Positions 1-23,295 of a stretch of 64,000 nucleotides of DNA are shown in pieces (positions within the stretch are counted from its first letter, which is position 1; each line of letters starts with the position of its first letter). The notes beneath the pieces are model-generated. The model did no database searches, had not been told where the DNA came from, and was given only the letters and a program-made list of their open reading frames with translations. A program made the translations under genes and the position numbers. This DNA is from Polynucleobacter paludilacus (lineage in GTDB: Bacteria > Pseudomonadota > Gammaproteobacteria > Burkholderiales > Burkholderiaceae): contig NZ_CP061298.1 of assembly GCF_018687595.1 (NCBI RefSeq), forward strand, positions 992,001 through 1,056,000, written 5' to 3'.

Positions 1-5
1 CTAAC

Positions 6-1481
6 TTACTTCGACTGACTACCCTTGTTTTTGGGCTGAGCTACTGGTAGACGCCCTGCTTTAACCGCTTTGCAAAAGAGCTCATAATCAGCCTGGTTTT
101 GTTTTGAATAAGCCTTAGCAAATCGATACAAAGCCTCATCCAGCTTCTTAGACTGGCCGCAATAACCTGAAATGACTGCTGAGTCTCCTGAGCGCGCATG
201 CCCTAATGCTAAAGCCCACCCAAACAGGCGAGCGTAATCCGGAAAATTCTTTAGCGACACTCCATCGGGACCAAAAACAATACCGCCCTTCATATCGCGT
301 AACTGTCGAAGATAGAAACCTTGCCTACTTCCAATCTCATACTCAAGATCGCCGTAGTTCAGAAAAATATCTGGTGCTCCCTGCAACAAGCGCTGGCCAG
401 ATACCACCCGTCGACCCATATTTTTATAAACCGATTGGCCGAGATAGGGTGTCAGCACTGAATGCTGTGCTTCTTTGTATTGCAAAAACAAAGGATCGTT
501 CGGTGAATCACCTTCAAAATAAATCACCATACAATTTGTGCCGACGCTGCCAACTCCCACCACCTTCCGCGCAAAGTCTTTTAATGAGTAACGCTCAAAT
601 AGCACTTTCTTATCGGCCAATAAGGTGCTGGAGTAATTCATTAAAGCGTTATTCACCAAATCAATCACCGGGCGCCCTTTAAATAGCGGAGAGAAGTGCT
701 GAATCAAGGGTGGCTGATTGATGATCTTGCGATCTTTACCAACCAAGGTGGTTAATTTTTGTAGCACCTGAATCTTGGTTTGCCCTTTAGTCTGCTTCAA
801 AAAAGCATCTAAGGTTTTTTGATGGGACTTACTAAAGTGTTTGCGGATATCCTCTTCCCCAATAAATTGCTGGGCAATTTGGATATAGGGCATCTGGGCA
901 TATTCAGCCATTCGCTTTTGATACTCAGAAGTAATTCTTTGTACCAGTAACTTACTGGTTTTTTCATCACCACCGAGTGTTTCACAAGCAATTACAGCAC
1001 TCGTTACCAGGCGCTTAATGTCGTACTCCCAACTGCCAGGCAGTGTTTCATCAAAATCATTAATTCCGAAAACTAACCGGTGCTCGGTAGTAGCAAATAA
1101 ACCAAAGTTGGAGACATGCATATCACCGCACAGTTGCACGGTCACATTCGTTGTTGGCTGGTTTGCCAAGTCCTGCGCCATGATGGCTGCACCACCGCGA
1201 TAAAAGGCAAATGGTGACTGCAACATGCGCTCATAGCGAATCGGAATCAACTCTTTAATACGACTTTTTGCTTGTCTTTCAAGAATGATGATAGGGTCGA
1301 GGCGATGCTGCAAAGGCGTATAAATACCTTGTTGCTCAAAGCTCACTTTTTTGCGAAGCGCCTTACCATCAGAGATGCGTTTTTTAATCGATGGTCGTGG
1401 ATTTTTGAATGACTCAATCGAATTGAGAATGGCTATCTTGGTTTGGGGGATTTGCTCACTGGCCTTCTTTGCTACTGACAT
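6..1481 (-). CDS. DUF2252 family protein
   Basis: A 491-residue protein of the DUF2252 family, whose biochemical role I do not know. Visible family motifs are SPFAFYRG at about residues 89-96, CGDMHVSNFG at 118-127, NDFDET at 141-146 and WEYDIKRL at 151-158. The GDxHxxNFG and NDFDE pair recalls the catalytic loop and metal-binding Asp of kinase-like phosphotransferases, so a phosphotransferase fold is possible but only inferred. There is no signal peptide or membrane segment, so it should be cytoplasmic. The start ATG at 1481 gives a normal full length. The gene stands 60 bp downstream of the arsenate-reductase-like gene on the same strand. The stop codon lies 5 bases from the window edge. 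Confidence 0.85.
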   Translation of the reverse strand: MSVAKKASEQIPQTKIAILNSIESFKNPRPSIKKRISDGKALRKKVSFEQQGIYTPLQHRLDPIIILERQAKSRIKELIPIRYERMLQSPFAFYRGGAAIMAQDLANQPTTNVTVQLCGDMHVSNFGLFATTEHRLVFGINDFDETLPGSWEYDIKRLVTSAVIACETLGGDEKTSKLLVQRITSEYQKRMAEYAQMPYIQIAQQFIGEEDIRKHFSKSHQKTLDAFLKQTKGQTKIQVLQKLTTLVGKDRKIINQPPLIQHFSPLFKGRPVIDLVNNALMNYSSTLLADKKVLFERYSLKDFARKVVGVGSVGTNCMVIYFEGDSPNDPLFLQYKEAQHSVLTPYLGQSVYKNMGRRVVSGQRLLQGAPDIFLNYGDLEYEIGSRQGFYLRQLRDMKGGIVFGPDGVSLKNFPDYARLFGWALALGHARSGDSAVISGYCGQSKKLDEALYRFAKAYSKQNQADYELFCKAVKAGRLPVAQPKNKGSQSK

Positions 1482-1541
1482 GCGGACTCCGATAGATGGA
1501 TTTTTCCCATCATACCGCTTATTGACAGCCCCAGAATGGTC

Positions 1542-2033
1542 TTATTGAAACTGCTGATGGATGCGATGCAAGTGATCTTTGACCTCAAGGTGATCGAGCT
1601 TATCGACTGGCAGATTGATCAGATGCTCGATACGGTTACGCAGACCCATTTCCACCTTTCTAAAGGCTTGCAGCTGAGCTTCATAGCCCTCGACTGTTGA
1701 CGGGTCAGGAAAGCCCCAGTGCGCCGTGGAAGGATGGCCGGGCCAATAGGGGCACTCTTCACCAGCAGCCTCATCACACACTGTGATGATGAAATCCATA
1801 TGAGGAGCGCCTTCTTGACCAAACTCATCCCAACTTTTGCTACGCAGTAAATTCAGGGGGTAGCCCATTTCCTTTACCAACTGCAAGGCAATTGGATTAA
1901 CTGTACCCATTGGTTTTGAACCGGCAGAATATCCGATAAATTTTCCGTGACTGAGAGTGGTCGTAAGCGCCTCACCCAAAATTGAGCGTGAGGAATTGCC
2001 GGTGCATAAAAACAGGACGTTATAAGGTTTCAT
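1542..2033 (-). CDS. ArsC-like arsenate reductase / low-molecular-weight tyrosine phosphatase family
   Basis: A 163-residue cytoplasmic protein of the low-molecular-weight phosphatase fold. The P-loop CTGNSSRS places the nucleophile at Cys10, and the DP of GFPDPSTVEG (Asp110) matches the general-acid loop. Cys86 and Cys94 in the VCDEAAGEEC segment fit the second and third cysteines of thioredoxin-coupled arsenate reductases, so arsenate reduction is the best guess. No arsB, acr3 or arsR gene lies nearby, so a link to arsenic resistance is not supported by context, and a protein-tyrosine phosphatase role remains open. It is followed by the DUF2252 gene and preceded 12 bp upstream by a 60-codon ORF, probably in one transcript. 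Confidence 0.85.
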   Translation of the reverse strand: MKPYNVLFLCTGNSSRSILGEALTTTLSHGKFIGYSAGSKPMGTVNPIALQLVKEMGYPLNLLRSKSWDEFGQEGAPHMDFIITVCDEAAGEECPYWPGHPSTAHWGFPDPSTVEGYEAQLQAFRKVEMGLRNRIEHLINLPVDKLDHLEVKDHLHRIHQQFQ

Positions 2034-2045
2034 GAGTTGTAATGA

Positions 2046-2228
2046 TTAAATGATTTCGTCAATGTTCAAAGCATAACGACTATCGACTAAAAAAGAAACG
2101 AGTCTGTCTTTTAGTAATTGGGAGCGCGTTTGCAGCATTTGTTCTTTTACATCCAGATCAGAGGCGCGCAAAAGGGCATCCTGTTTTTCTGGGTTCTGAC
2201 CCAGGATGGTGTTGCTCAAATTGCTCAT
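2046..2228 (-). CDS. Small hypothetical protein (60 aa)
   Basis: A 60-residue, mostly hydrophilic, likely helical protein without recognised domain, signal peptide or membrane segment. The start ATG at 2228 is preceded by a strong GAGGGGG Shine-Dalgarno sequence about six bases upstream, which favours real translation. It ends 12 bp before the ArsC-like gene on the same strand, so the two could be co-transcribed and coupled. Composition is ordinary for the region. I do not recognise a family and suggest no function. Confidence 0.6.
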   Translation of the reverse strand: MSNLSNTILGQNPEKQDALLRASDLDVKEQMLQTRSQLLKDRLVSFLVDSRYALNIDEII

Positions 2229-2318
2229 TACGCCCCCTCATTTTTATAGATTTGTGACATCGTACAAAGGGGATATTTCAGAATGGTGAAGCTTTGATGA
2301 CAATCTTGCTGACTACAT

Positions 2319-2912
2319 TTAATTGCAAGCCAACTGTCCTAGGGTGTCCTTCTTTTGGTAAAAATTGCTCGCCATTGCCTCAAAGCGACTGCGGATATTG
2401 TTCTTAATGAAGTATTGCGCCACAAAGGCTGGTACCAAGGTATCAATGGCAAACTCGCTCTGGTACAGCACCCTCACCCCATTATTTTCAGACCGAATTT
2501 TCCAGGTTCCCCGGTAATAATCGACATCCCCGGAAACTTGACGAAAGGTCAGTAAATTGGTGGGCGTCTCCTCGTACTCCACAATGGAGTGGAGATTAAT
2601 CGGAAATAGGAGAATTCTCTCTTTGACATCCCGCTCAACCTGAACTTTATTACCCTCTCGGCTGATGACCACCGACTTCTTGATGCCCGGAATTTTGGCA
2701 GCGCTTTCGTAATCAGTCAGCATCGTATAGGTTTGGCATTCAGTAGCGGGCATCAGGAAGCTTGCTGAAACCTGAAAGGCATCGCCTGCCCTTTTTACTG
2801 TGACTTTGAGGTCAAAATCAGGATTAGCACTCTCAGCGGAAGCCATTTGAGCGCTAGCTATCGAACTCATCACACTCAAGGACATTAACAATGAATACAG
2901 CAAGCGTTTCAT
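2319..2912 (-). CDS. Secreted SRPBCC (START/polyketide-cyclase-like) protein
   Basis: A 197-residue protein with an N-terminal signal peptide (charged MKR, hydrophobic stretch to about residue 20, likely cleavage near ASA at 24-26). The rest resembles the SRPBCC helix-grip fold: a YTMLTDYESAAKIPG segment followed by alternating strands, FRQVSGDVDYYRGTWKI, and a long C-terminal helix. Such folds bind hydrophobic ligands, but the ligand here is unknown. It should be periplasmic. No strong Shine-Dalgarno precedes ATG 2912. A strong intrinsic terminator lies only about 28-54 bases upstream on the same strand, so expression may depend on readthrough or on a promoter between terminator and gene. 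Confidence 0.75.
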   Translation of the reverse strand: MKRLLYSLLMSLSVMSSIASAQMASAESANPDFDLKVTVKRAGDAFQVSASFLMPATECQTYTMLTDYESAAKIPGIKKSVVISREGNKVQVERDVKERILLFPINLHSIVEYEETPTNLLTFRQVSGDVDYYRGTWKIRSENNGVRVLYQSEFAIDTLVPAFVAQYFIKNNIRSRFEAMASNFYQKKDTLGQLACN

Positions 2913-2939
2913 TCGGTTACTTTACGATTCATATAGATT

Positions 2940-2966
2940 AAAAAAATGCCCAGATTTCTCTGGGCA
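2940..2966 (-). terminator. Intrinsic terminator with no preceding gene on its strand
   Basis: Perfect 8-bp inverted repeat TGCCCAGA/TCTGGGCA (2947-2954 and 2959-2966) with a TTTC loop, followed on the minus strand by seven T residues (2940-2946). It ends transcripts coming from higher coordinates. The nearest gene there, at 3121, runs the other way, so the terminator must serve an unannotated minus-strand transcript or act as an attenuator in the leader of the SRPBCC gene. Confidence 0.75.
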
Positions 2967-3082
2967 AAATTGCATAGGAACAAGCATGTGCCAAGCAGCT
3001 GACTGCCCGACCATTTCAATGTAAATGGCTTGCGTGACAGCCACATGACAAGCAAGACAAATACTGCAAAAGGCCTGAGATT

Positions 3083-3097
3083 GCATTATGGTAATGC
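3083..3097. promoter_or_regulatory. Palindrome, possible operator
   Basis: GCATTA-TGG-TAATGC is a perfect 6-bp inverted repeat with a 3-bp centre, 24 bp before the metallophosphoesterase start and near the presumed start of the minus-strand transcript. It could be an operator shared by both directions. No regulator is identified, and chance occurrence is possible. Confidence 0.25.
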
Positions 3098-3120
3098 TAT
3101 ATCTTAAATAGGATCTTTGT

Positions 3121-4083
3121 ATGCCCCATCGTCTCGCCAATTTCATTGCCCTATCCCTGCTTTTTTTAGCCCTTGCCGCTCAAGGAGAATCGATTCGCTT
3201 TGTCGCCCTGGGTGATATGCCCTATTCCCTGCCGAAAGACTTTGTCCGTTATGAGCGCCTGATTAAAGCAATTAACGCCGATCAGCCTGCATTCAGTATT
3301 TTTGTGGGTGATACCAAGTCAGGTGACACACCCTGTAGCGATGAATATATGGAGAAGACCACGCGCTATTTCAACTCGTTTAATGCACCTCTCATTTATA
3401 GCATTGGTGATAACGAGTGGACCGATTGCCATCGCACTTTAGCAGGCAGCTATGATCCCATCGAGCGACTGGATCGCATTCGTAAAACACAGTTTGTGGA
3501 TCAAAATAGTTTTGGCAAGCGTCGTATTACCCTCACTCGGCAATCTGATGTCATGCCCCAGTTTGCAAAATTTGTAGAAAACTCACTGTGGGTGAAAGGG
3601 AAATTTGTATTCGTGAGCCTGCATATTCCAGGCTCGAACAATAATTACGAGAGAACTCCGGCATCCACCCAAGAGTATCTTGAACGCAATACTGCCAATT
3701 TAGCTTGGATTGAATATGCTTTTCAGCTGGCGCAAAAGAAAAATGCTGCAGGCATTGTGTTTGCATTCCAAGCCGATATGTTTTACTCACCACCAGGCGT
3801 CGTGAATAACCAAAATAGTGGCTTTGTAGATACCTTGAATCAATTCAGATCATTAGCAGAGAAAACTGCCTTACCTATTCTGTTAATCCATGGTGATAGT
3901 CATCGCCTTAGAATCGACCAGCCGCTATTAGATAGCAGCAGACGAGTTTTAGAAAATGTCTATCGCCTTGAAGTCATGGGAGCAGACGAAGTTCAAGCTG
4001 TCGAAGTGACTGTCGACGATAGTAAGTCGAGCCCCTTTAGCTTCAGGCCACTCTTAATCCCAGAAAATCTGAACCCTCAATAG
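3121..4083 (+). CDS. Secreted metallophosphoesterase-like protein
   Basis: A 320-residue protein with a signal peptide (residues 1-22, cleavage near AQG-ES), hence periplasmic or exported. Calcineurin-like metallophosphoesterase motifs appear in order: GDMPY at 31-35 (Pro in place of the usual His region), FVGDTKSG at 61-68, GDNEW at 96-100, His168 in VSLHIPGS, and HGDSHR at 257-262. The pattern suggests a dinuclear-metal hydrolase of a divergent class; substrate unknown. Start ATG 3121 has AGGA seven bases upstream. It is a single-gene plus-strand unit between minus-strand genes. A role in organic-phosphate use is conceivable because the pst/pho genes are close, but no Pho box is seen before it. 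Confidence 0.8.
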   Translation: MPHRLANFIALSLLFLALAAQGESIRFVALGDMPYSLPKDFVRYERLIKAINADQPAFSIFVGDTKSGDTPCSDEYMEKTTRYFNSFNAPLIYSIGDNEWTDCHRTLAGSYDPIERLDRIRKTQFVDQNSFGKRRITLTRQSDVMPQFAKFVENSLWVKGKFVFVSLHIPGSNNNYERTPASTQEYLERNTANLAWIEYAFQLAQKKNAAGIVFAFQADMFYSPPGVVNNQNSGFVDTLNQFRSLAEKTALPILLIHGDSHRLRIDQPLLDSSRRVLENVYRLEVMGADEVQAVEVTVDDSKSSPFSFRPLLIPENLNPQ

Positions 4084-4091
4084 CTTGTGGC

Positions 4092-4184
4092 CTAGCTACC
4101 CAGTCGATGGTGTAAAAACCGATTAGCGTAATGGATGCGGGCCTCATACCAAGCTTGCCAGTACTTCAAGATCATTTTTTTCAT
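4092..4184 (-). CDS. Very small basic protein (30 aa)
   Basis: A 30-codon ORF with ATG at 4184, a strong AGGAG Shine-Dalgarno seven bases upstream (around 4192-4197) and stop at 4092. The product begins MKKMILKYWQAW, is rich in aromatic and basic residues (W9, W12, Y13, several His and Arg) and ends in RLGS. It has the look of an amphipathic membrane- or nucleic-acid-associated microprotein, but I recognise no family with certainty. It is alone on the minus strand between two plus-strand genes, convergent with the metallophosphoesterase and 163 bp from mgtC. The ribosome binding site and compact aromatic/basic composition are the arguments for it. Confidence 0.55.
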   Translation of the reverse strand: MKKMILKYWQAWYEARIHYANRFLHHRLGS

Positions 4185-4347
4185 CACAATCTCCTGCTGG
4201 GTTGAACAGGTTCTGAGTTTGACTCCTCACCATGACATTGGCGTGGCGCTTTGATGACTTCTCCGTCTTAATGCTTAAAGCCCTCTATTAACTTAAGCTA
4301 AACTCAATCAGAGTTGTATTTAATCTACACCTTGGAAGAGGCAGAAA

Positions 4348-4830
4348 ATGGCACATTGGGATTTTTCATGGGATTTTGCCATGCGCTTAGGCTTGGCTTT
4401 AGTCGTCGGCAGTATTCTCGGACTCAACCGTTGGCTACACCACAAATCTGCCGGTATGAGAACACATGCTTTAGTGTCTATTGGTGCGGCAACAGCACTC
4501 ATGCTGAATAGTCAAATACCGAATTACGATGCCCAAGCTGTCAGCCATGTATTGCAAGGTTTAATTACTGGTTTAGGATTTCTGGGTGCGGGTGTCATCA
4601 TCCAGGAAGGTACTTCGCAAAAGATTCATGGTCTAACTACTGCGGCCAGTATTTGGTCTTGTGCCCTAATTGGCGCAGCCTTTGGCGCTGGTGAATTTGC
4701 AGTTGGCTTTCTTTCGCTTGGTGCCATATTGCTTGCCCTGCTCTTGGGCGGCCCCTGCGAACGCTTAGCGCGCAAGTTAACGGGTAGCAAACTCGGCTCT
4801 GAAATTCCACCAGAGCAAGAGGGTTCATGA
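4348..4830 (+). CDS. MgtC/SapB family inner-membrane protein
   Basis: A 160-residue hydrophobic protein with about four or five membrane segments and the MgtC signature: GSILGLNRW, then KSAGMRTHALVSIGAA (residues 33-48), then GLGFLGAGVIIQEG and GLTTAASIW. It corresponds to the membrane domain only and lacks the C-terminal ACT-like domain of Salmonella MgtC. The Glu that usually precedes Arg in the GLER motif is Asn here. Family members are linked to Mg-limited growth and to modulation of ATP synthase; the role here is inferred only at family level. GGAAGAGG lies shortly before ATG 4348. No Mg-sensing leader is obvious in the 160 bp upstream. Confidence 0.85.
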   Translation: MAHWDFSWDFAMRLGLALVVGSILGLNRWLHHKSAGMRTHALVSIGAATALMLNSQIPNYDAQAVSHVLQGLITGLGFLGAGVIIQEGTSQKIHGLTTAASIWSCALIGAAFGAGEFAVGFLSLGAILLALLLGGPCERLARKLTGSKLGSEIPPEQEGS

Positions 4831-4841
4831 TCCCAAAACCC

Positions 4842-4879
4842 CTATTTTTAGGCTTTCTAGACCAAAAATAGAGTTTTTG
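4842..4879 (+). terminator. Terminator after the mgtC-like gene
   Basis: Inverted repeat CTATTTTT (4842-4849) and AAAAATAG (4864-4871) with extra inner GG/CC pairing, followed by AGTTTTTG. The stem is AT-rich, so it is weaker than typical, but position and T-run fit a plus-strand terminator. Confidence 0.5.
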
Positions 4880-4940
4880 TCATATTAGTTTGGTAGGATT
4901 TGCACATCCTTAATCATGACAGTTTTTGCTTATCCAATTT

Positions 4941-5141
4941 ATGAGCCAATATAAGTACGAAGATGCCGTAAGACAGTTGCAAGAATCTGGGGCTATCAGC
5001 CTAGTCGATTTCAAGCAGCTCTCCTATGAGGATTTGGTTGAATTGCTGGAAGAAATCAAAGTCTGGTGTCTTTATGCCAATGGTAAACCAGAAAAGCTTG
5101 CAAAAGAATCCAAGAAAAAGAAGAAGAAGAAGAAAGACTAA
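4941..5141 (+). CDS. Small hypothetical protein with poly-lysine tail
   Basis: A 66-residue protein beginning MSQYKYEDAV, with a predicted helical acidic middle (LSYEDLVELLEEI) and a C-terminus of almost only lysine (SKKKKKKKKD). The start was set at ATG 4941; a TTG at 4926 would add five residues, and neither has a clear Shine-Dalgarno. An acidic helical body with a strongly basic tail suggests nucleic-acid or membrane-surface binding, as inference only. It ends eight bases before the convergent phoR stop codon. Confidence 0.6.
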   Translation: MSQYKYEDAVRQLQESGAISLVDFKQLSYEDLVELLEEIKVWCLYANGKPEKLAKESKKKKKKKKD

Positions 5142-5149
5142 GCCTGAGA

Positions 5150-6481
5150 TTAGGCTTGGATTGCTGAGAGCAAATCTGTCTCCGTATTGGCGACCCGGTC
5201 CCTAGGGAAGCGCAAAGTAAACGTACTGCCCTTGCCTGGCGTACTTTCAATTAATAGCTGTGCCTGATGTCGATTGGCAATGTGCTTCACAATCGCCAAG
5301 CCTAACCCAGTGCCGCCAGTATCGCGTGAGCGACTACGATCCACTCGATAGAAACGCTCGGTTAATCTGGGCAAATGCTCTGAAGCAATTCCGGGCCCGG
5401 TATCGGTTACCGAAAACTCCCCCTGCCCTTGCTCATTCAAGCCCCACCGTGCACTAATCGAACCGCCATTGGGTGTGTAGCGAATCGCATTAGAAACGAG
5501 ATTACTAAATGCAGAGAGCAGCTCGCGCTCATCACCAAAAAGGTTTTGGCTAGTTTTTTGTTCAAAGCGAAAACTATGACTACCCTGCGACAGTGCTTCC
5601 GCATCGTTTTTAATGAGTGCCATCAAGGTATTAAGCTGCACCACCTGTGTCGATGCAGGAACGGCATTCGCTTCCAGATTGGCCAAGGTTAAGAGGTCTT
5701 CTACCAAACTCTTCATCCGCTGAGCCTGTAACATCATCAAATCAAAATAATGGTCTTGCTGTGGCTTATCAAGATCAATTGATTGCACAGTCTCTAAAAA
5801 CCCCATCAATACGGTAATCGGCGTTCTCATCTCATGCGACACGTTGGCCACGAAATCACGCCGCATCGCATCTGCTTTTTGCAAATCAGTGACATCTTGT
5901 ATCAGCAATAGGTGGCGTTTCTCGCCATAAGGAAAGGCCTGAATTAATAAACTTAAATTACTATCAGGCCCCATTCTTTCGACAATGATCGATTCCTCAA
6001 ACTGCCGCTTACCCAGATACTGAATAAACTCAGGCCGCCTCAACAGAAAGTTAATGCGCTGACGAGCATCGCGGCGAAAATTCAGACCGAAGAATGACTC
6101 TGCTAAGGAATTACACCATTCAATTTGATCTTCATCATCCAGCATGACAATGCCATTAGGAGATGCCTGAAAGGCCTCAATAAAGCGATTATGTTGCTGA
6201 TCAATTGCTTGAGCGCGCGATTTTAGACCCTGAACCAGACGCTGCAGCCTGAAAAAGACATCCTCCCAAAAGCCGCTGGGAAGTGGCATATTTTCAATGT
6301 TGTCCGCAGCCAGATAATTACCGAGGCGGCTCAGATTGATATAGGAATAAATCAGGGGAATGGAGAGGACGGTGATTGCTGCTGCGATGCCAAAGTATGC
6401 CCCCCAATGTATTAAGGCAAGATAAGCGGCAACAATCGCCACGGCCAATAGGAGGCTAAATCGGGATAAGGCAGTTAACAT
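5150..6481 (-). CDS. phoR: Phosphate regulon sensor histidine kinase PhoR
   Basis: A 443-residue inner-membrane sensor kinase that phosphorylates PhoB under phosphate limitation. Two N-terminal membrane segments fill about residues 8-48, with no sizeable periplasmic domain, as in PhoR. A PAS domain follows (about 98-195), then the dimerisation/phosphoacceptor helix with VSHEMRTP (His216), and an ATPase domain with N-box SNLVSNAIRYTPNGG and G-boxes DTGPGIA and GGTGLGLAIV. It is the last gene of the pst-pho block. Between phoB and phoR lies an intrinsic terminator whose T-run ends 24 bases before the phoR ATG, so phoR may be expressed at a lower level than phoB. Confidence 0.95.
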   Translation of the reverse strand: MLTALSRFSLLLAVAIVAAYLALIHWGAYFGIAAAITVLSIPLIYSYINLSRLGNYLAADNIENMPLPSGFWEDVFFRLQRLVQGLKSRAQAIDQQHNRFIEAFQASPNGIVMLDDEDQIEWCNSLAESFFGLNFRRDARQRINFLLRRPEFIQYLGKRQFEESIIVERMGPDSNLSLLIQAFPYGEKRHLLLIQDVTDLQKADAMRRDFVANVSHEMRTPITVLMGFLETVQSIDLDKPQQDHYFDLMMLQAQRMKSLVEDLLTLANLEANAVPASTQVVQLNTLMALIKNDAEALSQGSHSFRFEQKTSQNLFGDERELLSAFSNLVSNAIRYTPNGGSISARWGLNEQGQGEFSVTDTGPGIASEHLPRLTERFYRVDRSRSRDTGGTGLGLAIVKHIANRHQAQLLIESTPGKGSTFTLRFPRDRVANTETDLLSAIQA

Positions 6482-6504
6482 GCTGCCATCTTATTGCATC
6501 CAGT

Positions 6505-6526
6505 AAAAAAGCCCTAAAAAGGGCTT
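6505..6526 (-). terminator. Terminator between phoB and phoR
   Basis: On the minus strand a hairpin AAGCCCT/AGGGCTT (6509-6526) is followed by six T residues (6505-6510, partly shared with the stem). It sits after the phoB stop (6548) and just before the phoR ATG (6481). It should end part of the phoB transcripts and attenuate phoR. Confidence 0.7.
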
Positions 6527-6547
6527 GATTGGGGTCAGAAACCGGTT

Positions 6548-7261
6548 TTAGGTTTCGGTTGGGGTCTTAGTAATCCGGTAGCCACTACCCCGTACTGTTT
6601 CAATAAAGCGGTCGCAGTCTAAAGGGGCTAAAGCGGCTCTGAGGCGCTTGATATGGACGTCTACGGTACGCTCTTCAATATAGACCTCACTACCCCAGAC
6701 CTTATCTAGCAGGTTCGCACGAGAATGCACGCGCTCTGGATTAGCCATAAAGAACTGTAGCAGTCGATATTCAGTTGGTCCAAGCGGAATAGGCTTAGAC
6801 TCCTCGTTTGGCCTCAGCGCTAAGACCCGATGTGAAATCGGATCCAGCTTCAAGGGGCCTACACTCAATGGCCCAGCATCTTGAACGGGAGACTGGCGAC
6901 GCAACAATGCCTTCACGCGAGCAACCAGCTCTTTAGGCGAAAAAGGTTTGGTCACATAGTCATCTGCACCTGAGTCAAGACCCAAGACCTTATCAGCCTC
7001 CTCACTCTTAGCAGTGAGCATCAAAATTGGTAGGGAGCGAGTCCGCTCATTTGCGCGCAATTCCTTTGCAAACTGCACGCCAGATTTGCCAGGCAACATC
7101 CAATCTAAAACAATCAGGCTAGGTAGATTCTCGCGCATGGCATTCATGGCAAGATCTGTTTGCATCGCTTTTTCTACTTCATAACCAGCATGGGACAAAT
7201 TCACCGCAATCAGCTCTGCAATAGAAGGCTCATCCTCAACAATCAATATGCGGTGAGTCAT
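6548..7261 (-). CDS. phoB: Phosphate regulon response regulator PhoB
   Basis: A 237-residue OmpR-type regulator: receiver domain with acidic pair EDE at 9-11, phosphoacceptor Asp53 in VLDWMLPG, and TKPF near 105, then a winged-helix DNA-binding domain with EERTVDVHIKRLRAAL and the terminal VRGSGYRI. Phosphorylated by PhoR, it activates Pho-box promoters such as the one before pstS. The start was taken at ATG 7261, which has GGAG six bases upstream; a TTG one codon earlier is unlikely. It lies directly after phoU, as in many betaproteobacteria, where the whole pst-phoU-phoB-phoR set is one block. Confidence 0.96.
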   Translation of the reverse strand: MTHRILIVEDEPSIAELIAVNLSHAGYEVEKAMQTDLAMNAMRENLPSLIVLDWMLPGKSGVQFAKELRANERTRSLPILMLTAKSEEADKVLGLDSGADDYVTKPFSPKELVARVKALLRRQSPVQDAGPLSVGPLKLDPISHRVLALRPNEESKPIPLGPTEYRLLQFFMANPERVHSRANLLDKVWGSEVYIEERTVDVHIKRLRAALAPLDCDRFIETVRGSGYRITKTPTET

Positions 7262-7285
7262 CAAAGGCTCCGTGTAGTCGCTTGT

Positions 7286-10787: not shown

Positions 10788-11816
10788 TTACTTAACATCA
10801 ACCTGTGACCAAACACTCTTACGAATGAAGTTGGTTGTTGCTTCAGGCATTGGAACGTAATCGAGTTCAGAAGCCATCTTGCCGCCATCTTTGAAACCGA
10901 AATCAAAGAACTTGATCACTTCAGCAGCGTTTGCTTTGTTATCAGGCTTTTTGTAGATGACAACGAAAGTAGCGCCAGTAATTGGCCATGAAGCAGCACC
11001 AGGAGCGTTGGTAATGAATGTTTCCATTCCTGGGAATTTAGACCAGTCAGTACCAGCAGAAGCAGCAGCGAATGCAGCAGCAGTAGGCAATACAAACTTC
11101 TCGTCCGCATTCTTCATCTGGGTGTAGCTCATGTTGTTTTTCTTAGCGTAAGCAAACTCAACATAACCGATTGAATTCTTGATACGACTTACGTTTGCTG
11201 CAACACCTTCGTTACCCTTACCGCTTACAGTAGAAGCAGCTGGCCATTTAACAGCAGCACCAAAACCTACGTTATCTTTCCAGCTCTTATTTACTTTAGA
11301 GAGGTAGTTAGTAAAGATTGCAGTTGTACCTGAACCATCAGCACGGGTTACAACAGTGATATCACCAGCCGGAATCTGAACGCCTGGGTTCAACAAGGCG
11401 ATACGCTTGTCATTCCAGTTAGTTAAAGTACCTTGGAAAATATCAGAGAGAACGTCGCTGGACAATTTCAACTGACCTGGCTTAATACCGTCGATGTTCA
11501 CAACAGGTACCACACCACCGATGATTGCAGGGAACTGAACCATGCCACCAGCTTGGAGCTCTTCAAAGCTCATTGGAGCGTCAGTTGCGCCAAAATCTAC
11601 TGTCTTCGCCTTAATTTGCTTGATACCACCGCCAGAACCGATCGATTGATAGTTCAAGCTGTTACCAGTTTTAGCTTTGTAAGCTTCAGCCCATTTAGAG
11701 AGTACTGGGTAGATAAAAGAAGAACCAGCACCAGTCATTTCAGTAGCCATTGCAGCAGAAGATACTGATAATGCTACGGCTCCAGCAACTAAAGCCTGTT
11801 TAAAAGAGAGTTTCAT
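10788..11816 (-). CDS. pstS: Periplasmic phosphate-binding protein PstS
   Basis: A 342-residue periplasmic phosphate receptor for PstCAB. Signal peptide 1-24 (cleavage AMA-TE), then the family N-terminus TGAGSSFIYPVLSKW. Phosphate-binding signatures visible are GAGSSF, SIGSGGGIKQI, DFGATDAPM and TRADGSGTTAIFTNYL. The start was set at ATG 11816 because the signal peptide begins there (MKLSFKQ) and AAGGA lies ten bases upstream. A Pho box and a fitting -10 hexamer lie 45-78 bases upstream, so it should be induced by PhoB. Confidence 0.97.
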   Translation of the reverse strand: MKLSFKQALVAGAVALSVSSAAMATEMTGAGSSFIYPVLSKWAEAYKAKTGNSLNYQSIGSGGGIKQIKAKTVDFGATDAPMSFEELQAGGMVQFPAIIGGVVPVVNIDGIKPGQLKLSSDVLSDIFQGTLTNWNDKRIALLNPGVQIPAGDITVVTRADGSGTTAIFTNYLSKVNKSWKDNVGFGAAVKWPAASTVSGKGNEGVAANVSRIKNSIGYVEFAYAKKNNMSYTQMKNADEKFVLPTAAAFAAASAGTDWSKFPGMETFITNAPGAASWPITGATFVVIYKKPDNKANAAEVIKFFDFGFKDGGKMASELDYVPMPEATTNFIRKSVWSQVDVK

Positions 11817-11860
11817 TTGAGGATGTCCTTGTATAGAAATCGAGAGATAACAACACATGG

Positions 11861-11894
11861 ACGATACGATTTACGTATGACTCTTTTATGACAT
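11861..11894 (-). promoter_or_regulatory. Pho box and pstS promoter
   Basis: On the minus strand ATGTCAT-AAAA-GAGTCAT (11877-11894) matches the PhoB site CTGTCAT-N4-CTGTCAT at 6 of 7 and 5 of 7 positions. Exactly ten bases later stands TATCGT (11861-11866) as -10 box, the spacing known for PhoB-dependent promoters, which lack a normal -35. A weaker third repeat (GATGACC) lies in 11-bp phase upstream. Confidence 0.8.
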
Positions 11895-21904: not shown

Positions 21905-23097
21905 TATTTGCCTCCTTTGTTGCTGGCATTCATGAGCTCCACAAATCGATCAAACAAATACGCAATGTCATGTGGTCCAGGCGAGGCTTCTGGGTGGCCT
22001 TGGAAGCACAAAGCGAGTTTATCTTTCCAAGCCAGGCCCTGTAATGAACCATCAAATAATGAAATGTGTGTAACGCGCACGGTATCGGGCAAGGTATTGG
22101 GATCTACCGCAAAGCCATGATTCTGCGAAGTGATTGCAACGCGCCCACTATCTAAATCTTTAACGGGATGGTTAGCGCCATGGTGACCAAACTTCATCTT
22201 CAATGTCTTAGCGCCAGCGGCCAATCCCATAATTTGATGTCCTAAGCAAATACCAAAGGTTGGCACGCCCTTCTCAATGATTTCTTTGGCAGCCGCAATC
22301 GCATAATCGCATGGGCCGGGATCGCCAGGGCCATTAGAGAAGAACACGCCATCGGGATTCATAGCCAATACCTCTGCAGCACTGGTTTGTGCAGGAACTA
22401 CAGTGAGGTCGCAACCACGTTCAGCTAGCATGCGCAAAATATTGAATTTCACACCAAAGTCATAGGCCACTACTTTTTTGAGAGGCTTACTTTGCTCTAA
22501 GCTGCGATAGGCTGGCTTGCCATCAGGGCCATGCAATTCCCACTCGGCTTCACGCCATGGGTAGGATTTCTTAGTTGTAACTACCTTTGCTAAATCTAAA
22601 CCAGACATCCCTGGGAAGGATTGCGCCAACTGCAAGGCCTTTTTACCTAGGGCCTCAATATCGTCGCCCAACTTGCCAGCCACAATGGCACCAGATTGAG
22701 CGCCCTTATCACGCAAGATGCGGGTGAGCTTCCGAGTATCAACGCCGGAGATGCCCTGTACCTTGGATTTGGTCAGATAGTCTTCGAGACTACCTTCAGA
22801 ACGGAAGTTCGAGACCCGTCTGGATAAATCTTTAACGACTAGACCAGCAGCATGAATTTGGGTTGACTCCGCATCTTGAGCATTGACTCCGACATTACCA
22901 ATATGCGGGTAAGTCAGCGTGACAATTTGACGCGAGTAACTGGGGTCAGTAATGATTTCTTGATAGCCAGTGAGTGCAGTATTGAAGACTACCTCCCCAA
23001 CGGTTTCGCCGGGAGCGCCAATACTATGGCCTGGAAATAAAGTGCCGTCGGCTAGAGCCAACACGGCGGGAGGAAAAGAAGGAAGCAAGGGTGACAA
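21904..23097 (-). CDS. carA: Carbamoyl-phosphate synthase small subunit CarA
   Basis: A 397-residue glutamine amidotransferase that supplies ammonia to CarB. The N-terminal domain starts [17 protein letters not shown]; the class I amidotransferase domain carries the nucleophile in [13 protein letters not shown] and the His-Glu pair in GHPEASPGP. The frame offers no ATG near the family N-terminus. A TTG at 23097 has GGAG five bases upstream and fits; a second TTG at 23088 would give the remembered family start MLPSFPP but has no site. The 198 bp upstream, after prpE, must hold the promoter unless prpE is co-transcribed. Confidence 0.96.
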
Positions 23098-23295
23098 ACC
23101 ATCTCCAGTCCCTGCTCCATCCGACGCTCAACACCTCACAAAAGACTACCCCGAGGCTGTTTTTGCGGGAGGTGAGTGTCTTTAAGCGCTAGGGTAATTA
23201 TTGAGTTTCGAACCTTGCAATGATACCAGCTCGTTCACCCCAAAAGCAGAACTGCGCCCCTCCTCCCCTGGTCATTAGGCTGGCAGGCACCTTAA

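Follow-up and report, generated by a model that had tools for sequence, protein, structure and literature searches.

A predicted PhoB-activated small RNA in the pst-pho neighbourhood of Polynucleobacter

The minus-strand terminator described here, located within a window of 64,000 nucleotides of Polynucleobacter DNA (the whole stretch that was analyzed), with good confidence forms the 3' terminus of a separate, PhoB-activated small RNA about 72 nt long (3011-2940, minus strand). Computed support for this RNA is given by the layout of its promoter, by conservation and covariation, by synteny at the pst-pho locus, by the lack of coding and by the lack of a conserved antiterminator. The RNA is very probably switched on by PhoB and probably acts in trans; its control by PhoB in the cell, its trans action, its exact ends and its targets are what we infer from these comparisons.

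The terminator lies in a gap of 208 nt between a plus-strand gene that begins at 3121 and the start of a minus-strand SRPBCC gene at 2912. It consists of an 8-pair stem with five G-C pairs and a loop of 4, TGCCCAGAGAAATCTGGGCA (2966-2947), followed by T7 (2946-2940). An earlier note on this DNA had described this hairpin with seven T residues at 2940-2966, the lack of a minus-strand gene before it and the start of the SRPBCC gene 28 bases past the last T, and all three observations were correct: the next upstream gene is divergent and the SRPBCC ORF begins at 2912. A scan of positions 1-7000 revealed 10 terminator-like sites compared with 7.3 (sd 3.1) in shuffled sequences, and the site at 2966-2940 is one of two with 8 pairs. 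Since this count is not above the shuffles, a single terminator-like site proves little; it is lifted above chance because it is conserved. The perfect 6+3+6 palindrome GCATTATGGTAATGC (3083-3097) reported in the same note is also present, but not near the presumed start of the RNA, as it is located upstream of the Pho-box promoter and the start lies near 3011. One of its arm bases is changed in the relative G111, and it perhaps belongs to the promoter region of the divergent plus-strand gene. A sigma-70 scan of 1-7000 yielded 4 sites versus 10.5 expected and none within the gap (2913-3120).

The window contains phoB (6548-7264, minus strand; TIGR02154 above cut-off), phoR (5150-6481, minus strand; TIGR02966 above cut-off) and pstS (10788-11858, NCBIfam), and NCBIfam additionally names PhoU, PstB, PstA and PstC, so that the pstSCAB-phoU-phoB-phoR set is present. 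Downstream of the terminator the minus strand carries the SRPBCC gene (2319-2912; Polyketide_cyc, PF03364), with an N-terminus that appears signal-like by eye, the 60-aa ORF s60 (2046-2228) and a gene of the low-molecular-weight phosphotyrosine phosphatase family (LMWPc, 1542-2033; Pfam). The divergent gene (3121-4083, plus strand) reads like a secreted metallophosphatase and gave no match in Pfam, NCBIfam or PDB. The SRPBCC protein was matched in 107 of 186 genus genomes, with no match on the plasmids searched; of the 30 phosphatase loci inspected, three have its gene beside that of the phosphatase, namely those of G000, the genome of the window, and of two close members of the genus, G016 and G111. 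The ORF s71 (4926-5141, plus strand) encodes 71 aa with a lysine-rich tail, has no Pfam match and adjoins phoR in many homologue loci. The window also contains a carA motif (RF04192) at 23089-23259 (minus strand), which scores 155 bits (gathering score 100); this motif is mostly known from Polynucleobacter (PMC8632094).

The promoter proposed for the RNA consists of a Pho box, TTGTCAT-GTGG-CTGTCAC (3051-3034, minus strand), with two CTGTCAT-type repeats in an 11-bp period, and of the -10 element TACATT (3023-3018, minus strand), which matches TATAAT at 4/6 positions and follows the box after 10 bp. This order, a Pho box and then a -10 element, corresponds to the consensus layout. Direct-repeat Pho boxes with strict spacing are described in PMC10294691. 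The box is the only site without mismatch to TGTCAYN5TGTCAY in the 1.67-Mb genome, and with up to one mismatch the whole genome contains 21 sites, compared with 6 in the reversed control. Within the window, two boxes were found at this threshold, with 1.0 expected and with at least two in 24 of 100 shuffles, so that their number alone does not exceed chance. One of them precedes the predicted small RNA; the second, TGTCATAAAAGAGTCAT (11877-11893, minus strand), precedes pstS and is located 10 bp before TATCGT, hence at the same spacing. Together with the PhoB and PhoR encoded by the genome, the 11-bp repeat period and the spacing of about 10 bp are features expected of a member of the Pho regulon.

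In the genus, the combined pattern of box and -10 element was matched 83 times, in 75 of the 186 genomes, versus 5 times for the reversed control. Sorting of 30 of these loci, for which N-termini were read by eye and Pfam was run on 8, assigned 8 to pstS-type genes, 11 to ArsR-type regulators, 2 to Ppx, 1 to LMWPc and 5 to others, with the remaining 3 in front of short RNAs that end in a terminator, two of which are the RNA described here. The layout TTGTCAT-N4-CTGTCAC-N10-TACATT was also noticed by eye in intergenic regions of more distant relatives. The ArsR-type genes with a Pho box (11 of 30 loci, L130-L159, e.g. L130:1167-1493) are nearly leaderless, as 6-7 nt separate the -10 element from the start codon. 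About 5 kb outside the window, three tandem Pho-type repeats (G000:C1:986738-986765; L121/L122) stand before a gene that was read by eye as metallophosphoesterase-like and that is perhaps another member of the Pho regulon.

Transcription from the -10 element would start near 3011, about 7 nt downstream of it, and the predicted 5' end is derived from the position of this element. The resulting RNA would begin with a stable hairpin of 9 pairs, GUCGGGCAG-UCAG-CUGCUUGGC (2990-3011), continue with a linker of 23 nt, ACAUGCUUGUUCCUAUGCAAUUU (2967-2989), and end with the terminator. The linker is mostly unpaired in the folds and is a candidate for target pairing. Compared with shuffled sequences, the hairpin-linker-terminator fold reached z values of -3.1, -3.4 and -3.8 in the three species. 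Among G000, G016 and G111, 6 of the 72 RNA columns vary, none of them in the linker, and the pairing of the 5' hairpin is kept: three stem pairs are changed in G016/G111, and all of them stay paired by one-sided changes. Double (compensatory) changes were not found in the alignment of these three sequences (A5). The earlier note had proposed an unannotated RNA of up to about 170 nt; computation supports the small RNA, on the evidence of a covarying structure, a PhoB-type promoter, the terminator and synteny in part of the genus, but reduces its length to about 72 nt.

The block around the RNA is conserved in the close relatives, with an identity of 94% in G016 and 91% in G111 in the DNA search, and the terminator hairpin, the loss of which had been named as an argument against the RNA, is kept in both. 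Between 2940 and 3100, G000 and G111 differ at 13 of 161 nt, whereas the 4-fold degenerate positions in eight ORFs close by, which are 50.6% identical to G111, would predict about 80 differences; for G016 there are 7 differences versus about 46 expected. The DNA identity to G111 is 76% for the neighbouring SRPBCC gene and 72% for mgtC. Because coding DNA is itself conserved, the block is unexceptional among windows of its size, and 24% of all 161-nt windows in the 64 kb equal or exceed its identity to G111. The point is thus not a record in conservation; it is the constraint on non-coding DNA, which indicates strong purifying selection.

Such constraint could also come from a small cysteine-containing protein of 48-74 aa encoded across 2909-3146, and open frames do exist in the window. 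The cysteine-containing ORF mentioned in the earlier note is real as a frame of 74 aa (2922-3146, minus strand), which is open in G000 and shows three synonymous and two non-synonymous changes in G016. It is not a gene, however: the frame is interrupted by a stop in G016, shows 9 non-synonymous changes and 1 synonymous change in G111 and has no Pfam match, and stop codons break the 48-aa frame in both G016 and G111. Moreover, the ORFs cross the terminator and the long one crosses the promoter too. We therefore regard the chance that a protein is encoded here as negligible. The region instead combines its own predicted promoter, an intrinsic terminator and a conserved structure with the lack of a conserved coding frame, as expected for a small RNA.

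The homologues of the small RNA were collected by means of the neighbouring LMWPc gene, the protein of which was matched in 166 of 186 genus genomes. A loose scan of the 30 LMWPc loci with the best scores detected, in 17 of them, a Pho-type box together with a -10 element and a terminator whose start is offset by 81-88 nt from that of the box; it gave 18 further box-like matches elsewhere in the same 30 loci. The spacing between box and -10 element is 10 bp in 17 of the 17 (gaps of 9-11 were allowed); the boxes outside the clade of the window are less perfect, with scores of 9.5-11 out of 12 in 14 of the 17. Four of the other 13 loci contain a terminator but no such box, and for three of the 13 (G150, G051 and G049) the RNA was later found by the covariance model R2 described below, which raises the number to 20 of 30 loci.

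These relatives also bear on a reading in which the block is a two-way promoter or operator for the divergent phosphatase-like gene and the SRPBCC gene and yields no stable RNA. The conservation indeed reaches beyond the upstream edge of the Pho box, as far as about 3105, and takes in the palindrome. The Pho box, however, points away from the phosphatase-like gene, and the hairpin between promoter and terminator covaries, which argues for selection on a transcript and makes a pure promoter function very unlikely. Pairs were counted in alignment A4, which comprises 15 homologues outside the clade of the window (14 of the 17 and G055), in addition to A5. In A4 double changes occur in each of the 6 pairs of the 5' hairpin, with pairing in 100% of its cells, so that the check for covariance in aligned relatives suggested by the earlier note turned out positive. 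For both hairpins together, 97.4% of the cells pair compared with a shuffled mean of 91.8% (0 of 500 shuffles were as high), double changes occur in 8 of 13 pairs versus 2.5 in shuffles, and slid controls reached 26-60% paired; as the 15 sequences are related, the shuffle figures are not probabilities. RNAalifold recovered both hairpins unaided from the homologues. The 5' hairpin of the clade of the window is longer (9 pairs) than the equivalent 6-pair hairpin of the 15 relatives.

The covariance model R2 was built from the 15 A4 sequences without G000, G016 and G111, and its E-values are rough. In each of these three genomes it found the RNA as the sole match, with E-values of 1.2e-5 (G000), 1.6e-5 (G016) and 3.6e-5 (G111). 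A search of the 186 genus genomes revealed 37 genomes at E <=0.1, 28 below 1e-3 and 26 below 1e-4, and 11 of the 26 strict matches come from genomes absent from the model. With strict filters, 149 of 186 genomes gave no match even at E 0.1; in most genomes of the genus the RNA is either absent or too diverged to find. All 26 strict matches, and also G173, are syntenic on at least one of two sides, with phoR-s71-mgtC or the phosphatase upstream and s60-LMWPc-DUF2252 downstream. Based on the R2 matches and on synteny, the RNA belongs to a family that is kept patchily in the genus, with 26 of 186 genomes by strict count (about one in seven). Among 299 genomes of the family from 25 genera, R2 matched 10 that belong to this genus and gave a single weak match outside it (G429, E 0.006).

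G173 (E 7e-4) is syntenic and lacks the 5' hairpin, and is a probable short form of the RNA. G124 (E 5e-4) was not counted as a member, since it shows synteny on neither side, and the weak matches in G092, G020, G064, G018, G045, G012, G141, G056 and G143 (E 0.002-0.06) were not counted either. A Pho box followed by an RNA of about 50 nt with UCUCCUUC and a terminator, again without the 5' hairpin, was observed at L138:1500-1595 (G066) and L233 (G092). It adjoins an SRPBCC paralogue, and in G066 also a relative of the s71 gene; at G064:C46:10530-10630 this form was seen solely as pattern plus R2 match. The RNA of about 50 nt in G066, G092 and G064 may be a reduced version of the predicted RNA. 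A first model (R1), made from a 171-nt block of the three nearest species in which RNAalifold proposed a long imperfect stem, was dropped: the fold spans the promoter, shows no double changes and has five pairs broken in one sequence. R1 matched the three species with E-values of at most 4e-34; in four other genomes its matches were weak (E 0.03-0.44). A DNA search (E <=0.1) gave matches in 29 of 186 genomes, beyond the three close species only as stretches of 17-44 bases; the best of these short matches, in G103, was rejected as a terminator behind an ORF.

The most serious alternative is an attenuated 5' leader, in which the Pho-box promoter drives SRPBCC-s60-LMWPc (elsewhere s60-LMWPc), the terminator is regulated or leaky and the short RNA is a by-product. 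In the window the SRPBCC gene begins 28 nt past the T-run, one member of the genus carries an LMWPc gene with a Pho box (L158), and in 22 of 26 homologues an ORF of 57-62 aa, which corresponds to s60, is next downstream and starts 54-85 nt past the matched element; of the remaining homologues, G055 seems to contain the same ORF with an earlier called start, and the three species of the window have SRPBCC. Because the small ORF follows so closely in most homologues, synteny does not dismiss a leader, and read-through into this ORF is conceivable. The 5' arm of the terminator has a 7-nt upstream complement in G016 (P 0.03) and 5-nt complements in G000 (P 0.26) and G111 (P 0.34). Summed over the 26 members, however, the longest upstream complements amount to 92 compared with 89.6 in shuffles, and no conserved antiterminator was found across them, with G016 alone standing out. 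The switch in the SRPBCC leader that the earlier note had considered is thus not supported, as no conserved antiterminator was found and the RNA is retained in species that have no SRPBCC gene here. The RNA is also left intact where SRPBCC stands between it and s60.

The sequence before s60 argues in the same direction. An element drawn by eye, TGAAATAT-N8-TA.GATG, is located in front of s60 both where the RNA is present and where it is absent (L175-L204). Using a 16-base query derived from it, with up to two mismatches, it was detected in 17 of 20 RNA loci and in 5 of 10 loci without the RNA. In the window the core of the element persists downstream of SRPBCC (2229-2318); compared with the full query, this place shows 4 mismatches, no fewer than the best shuffles. 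These matches suggest that s60 has its own promoter, and the element may be a promoter or operator of the s60-LMWPc unit. An attenuated leader is accordingly unlikely for SRPBCC and unlikely for the small ORF that follows most homologues, and as an account of the whole locus we give it little weight, clearly below that of the independent small RNA.

For the independent small RNA the following chain is probable, all elements of which are present, with the chain itself being what we infer from them. When phosphate is scarce, PhoR would phosphorylate PhoB, which would bind the Pho box at 3051-3034 and recruit RNA polymerase to the -10 element at 3023-3018, and the transcript would stop at the terminator at 2966-2940. 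Most likely the linker would then base-pair with target mRNAs and lower their translation in phosphate starvation. A pyrimidine-rich stretch of the UUCCU type, which is present in many of the linkers, would perhaps pair at ribosome-binding sites. The strict pyrimidine-rich UCC pattern is found in 20 of 26 members (21 are listed, with the match in G177 lying past the terminator), and the linker sequence differs between the clade of the window and the other homologues.

A search for AGGAACA-N(1-11)-ATG yielded 28, 29 and 26 matches in G000, G016 and G111, respectively, compared with 11, 20 and 15 in the reversed control. Inspection of the loci of 30 matches and of 20 stretches from these three genomes revealed no convincing target. 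Among the gene starts that have a fitting site are those of a lysine-rich protein, in all three genomes, and, by our own reading, of a flagellar rod-type protein; pairing energies single out no target among these starts. A broader reading takes the PhoB-driven mini-RNA as a phosphate-sparing brake that, once phosphate is exhausted, damps translation at a set of ribosome-binding sites by a short, pyrimidine-rich, anti-Shine-Dalgarno-like linker, with a fast-evolving body and a fixed promoter, place and terminator. The body of such a brake would have been rewritten between clades, with even the 5' hairpin lost, and the RNA would have been kept at the pst-pho locus. We consider this idea speculative and rather improbable.

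No Rfam 15 family reached its gathering threshold over the element, nor was any matched in the 20 loci, out of 30 from the R2 search, that were run against Rfam. The Betaproteobacteria toxic small RNA (RF02278; 22.4 bits versus a gathering score of 50) and NmsRb (RF02877; 24.1 bits versus 52) have a similar terminator. The alignments to both, below threshold, include the UCCU stretch, and these matches most likely reflect the resemblance of the terminators.

EsrL, an E. coli small RNA reported to be phosphate-induced (Jia et al. 2023, as cited in PMC10294691), resembles the predicted RNA by a PhoB site reported in its promoter region; according to PMC10294691, ChIP-seq of E. coli PhoB detected no binding upstream of esrL. 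EsrL belongs to another lineage and is likened here by description, not by sequence. The same is true for the cyanobacterial PsiR1 of Synechocystis 6803, a phosphate-stress-induced transcript of the phosphate regulon that is missing in a close relative (PMC5386190), a patchiness shared by the predicted RNA. In Sinorhizobium meliloti the abundance of small RNAs shifts under phosphate stress and some are bound by Hfq, but in the available part of PMC8829014 none combines a Pho box, a 5' hairpin and proximity to phoBR.

A survey of structured RNAs that includes Polynucleobacter necessarius reports other motifs of the genus, e.g. carA and icd-II, and the predicted RNA is not among the motifs in the available part of that paper (PMC8632094). 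Nor is it described in the accessible parts of a small-RNA study of Burkholderia thailandensis (PMC4035088) and of a study in P. aeruginosa on small RNAs acting on phoB (PMC12506140), and in the open-access literature, as far as its texts were available, no description of it was found. We therefore take the predicted RNA as a new family, of a kind that is already known, namely small RNAs that are linked to PhoB or respond to phosphate.

Bacteria of the genus Polynucleobacter are common in freshwater plankton and often face phosphate scarcity. A PhoB-controlled small RNA appears to be built into their pst-pho neighbourhood, and few RNAs under such control were found in the available part of the open-access literature. 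With a unit of 34 nt from box to -10 element and an RNA of 72 nt the system is small and readily testable. Differences in the linker between clades would reveal the way in which a small RNA's target specificity evolves under fixed regulation. Taken together, the predicted RNA is clear, testable and tied to a major nutrient response.
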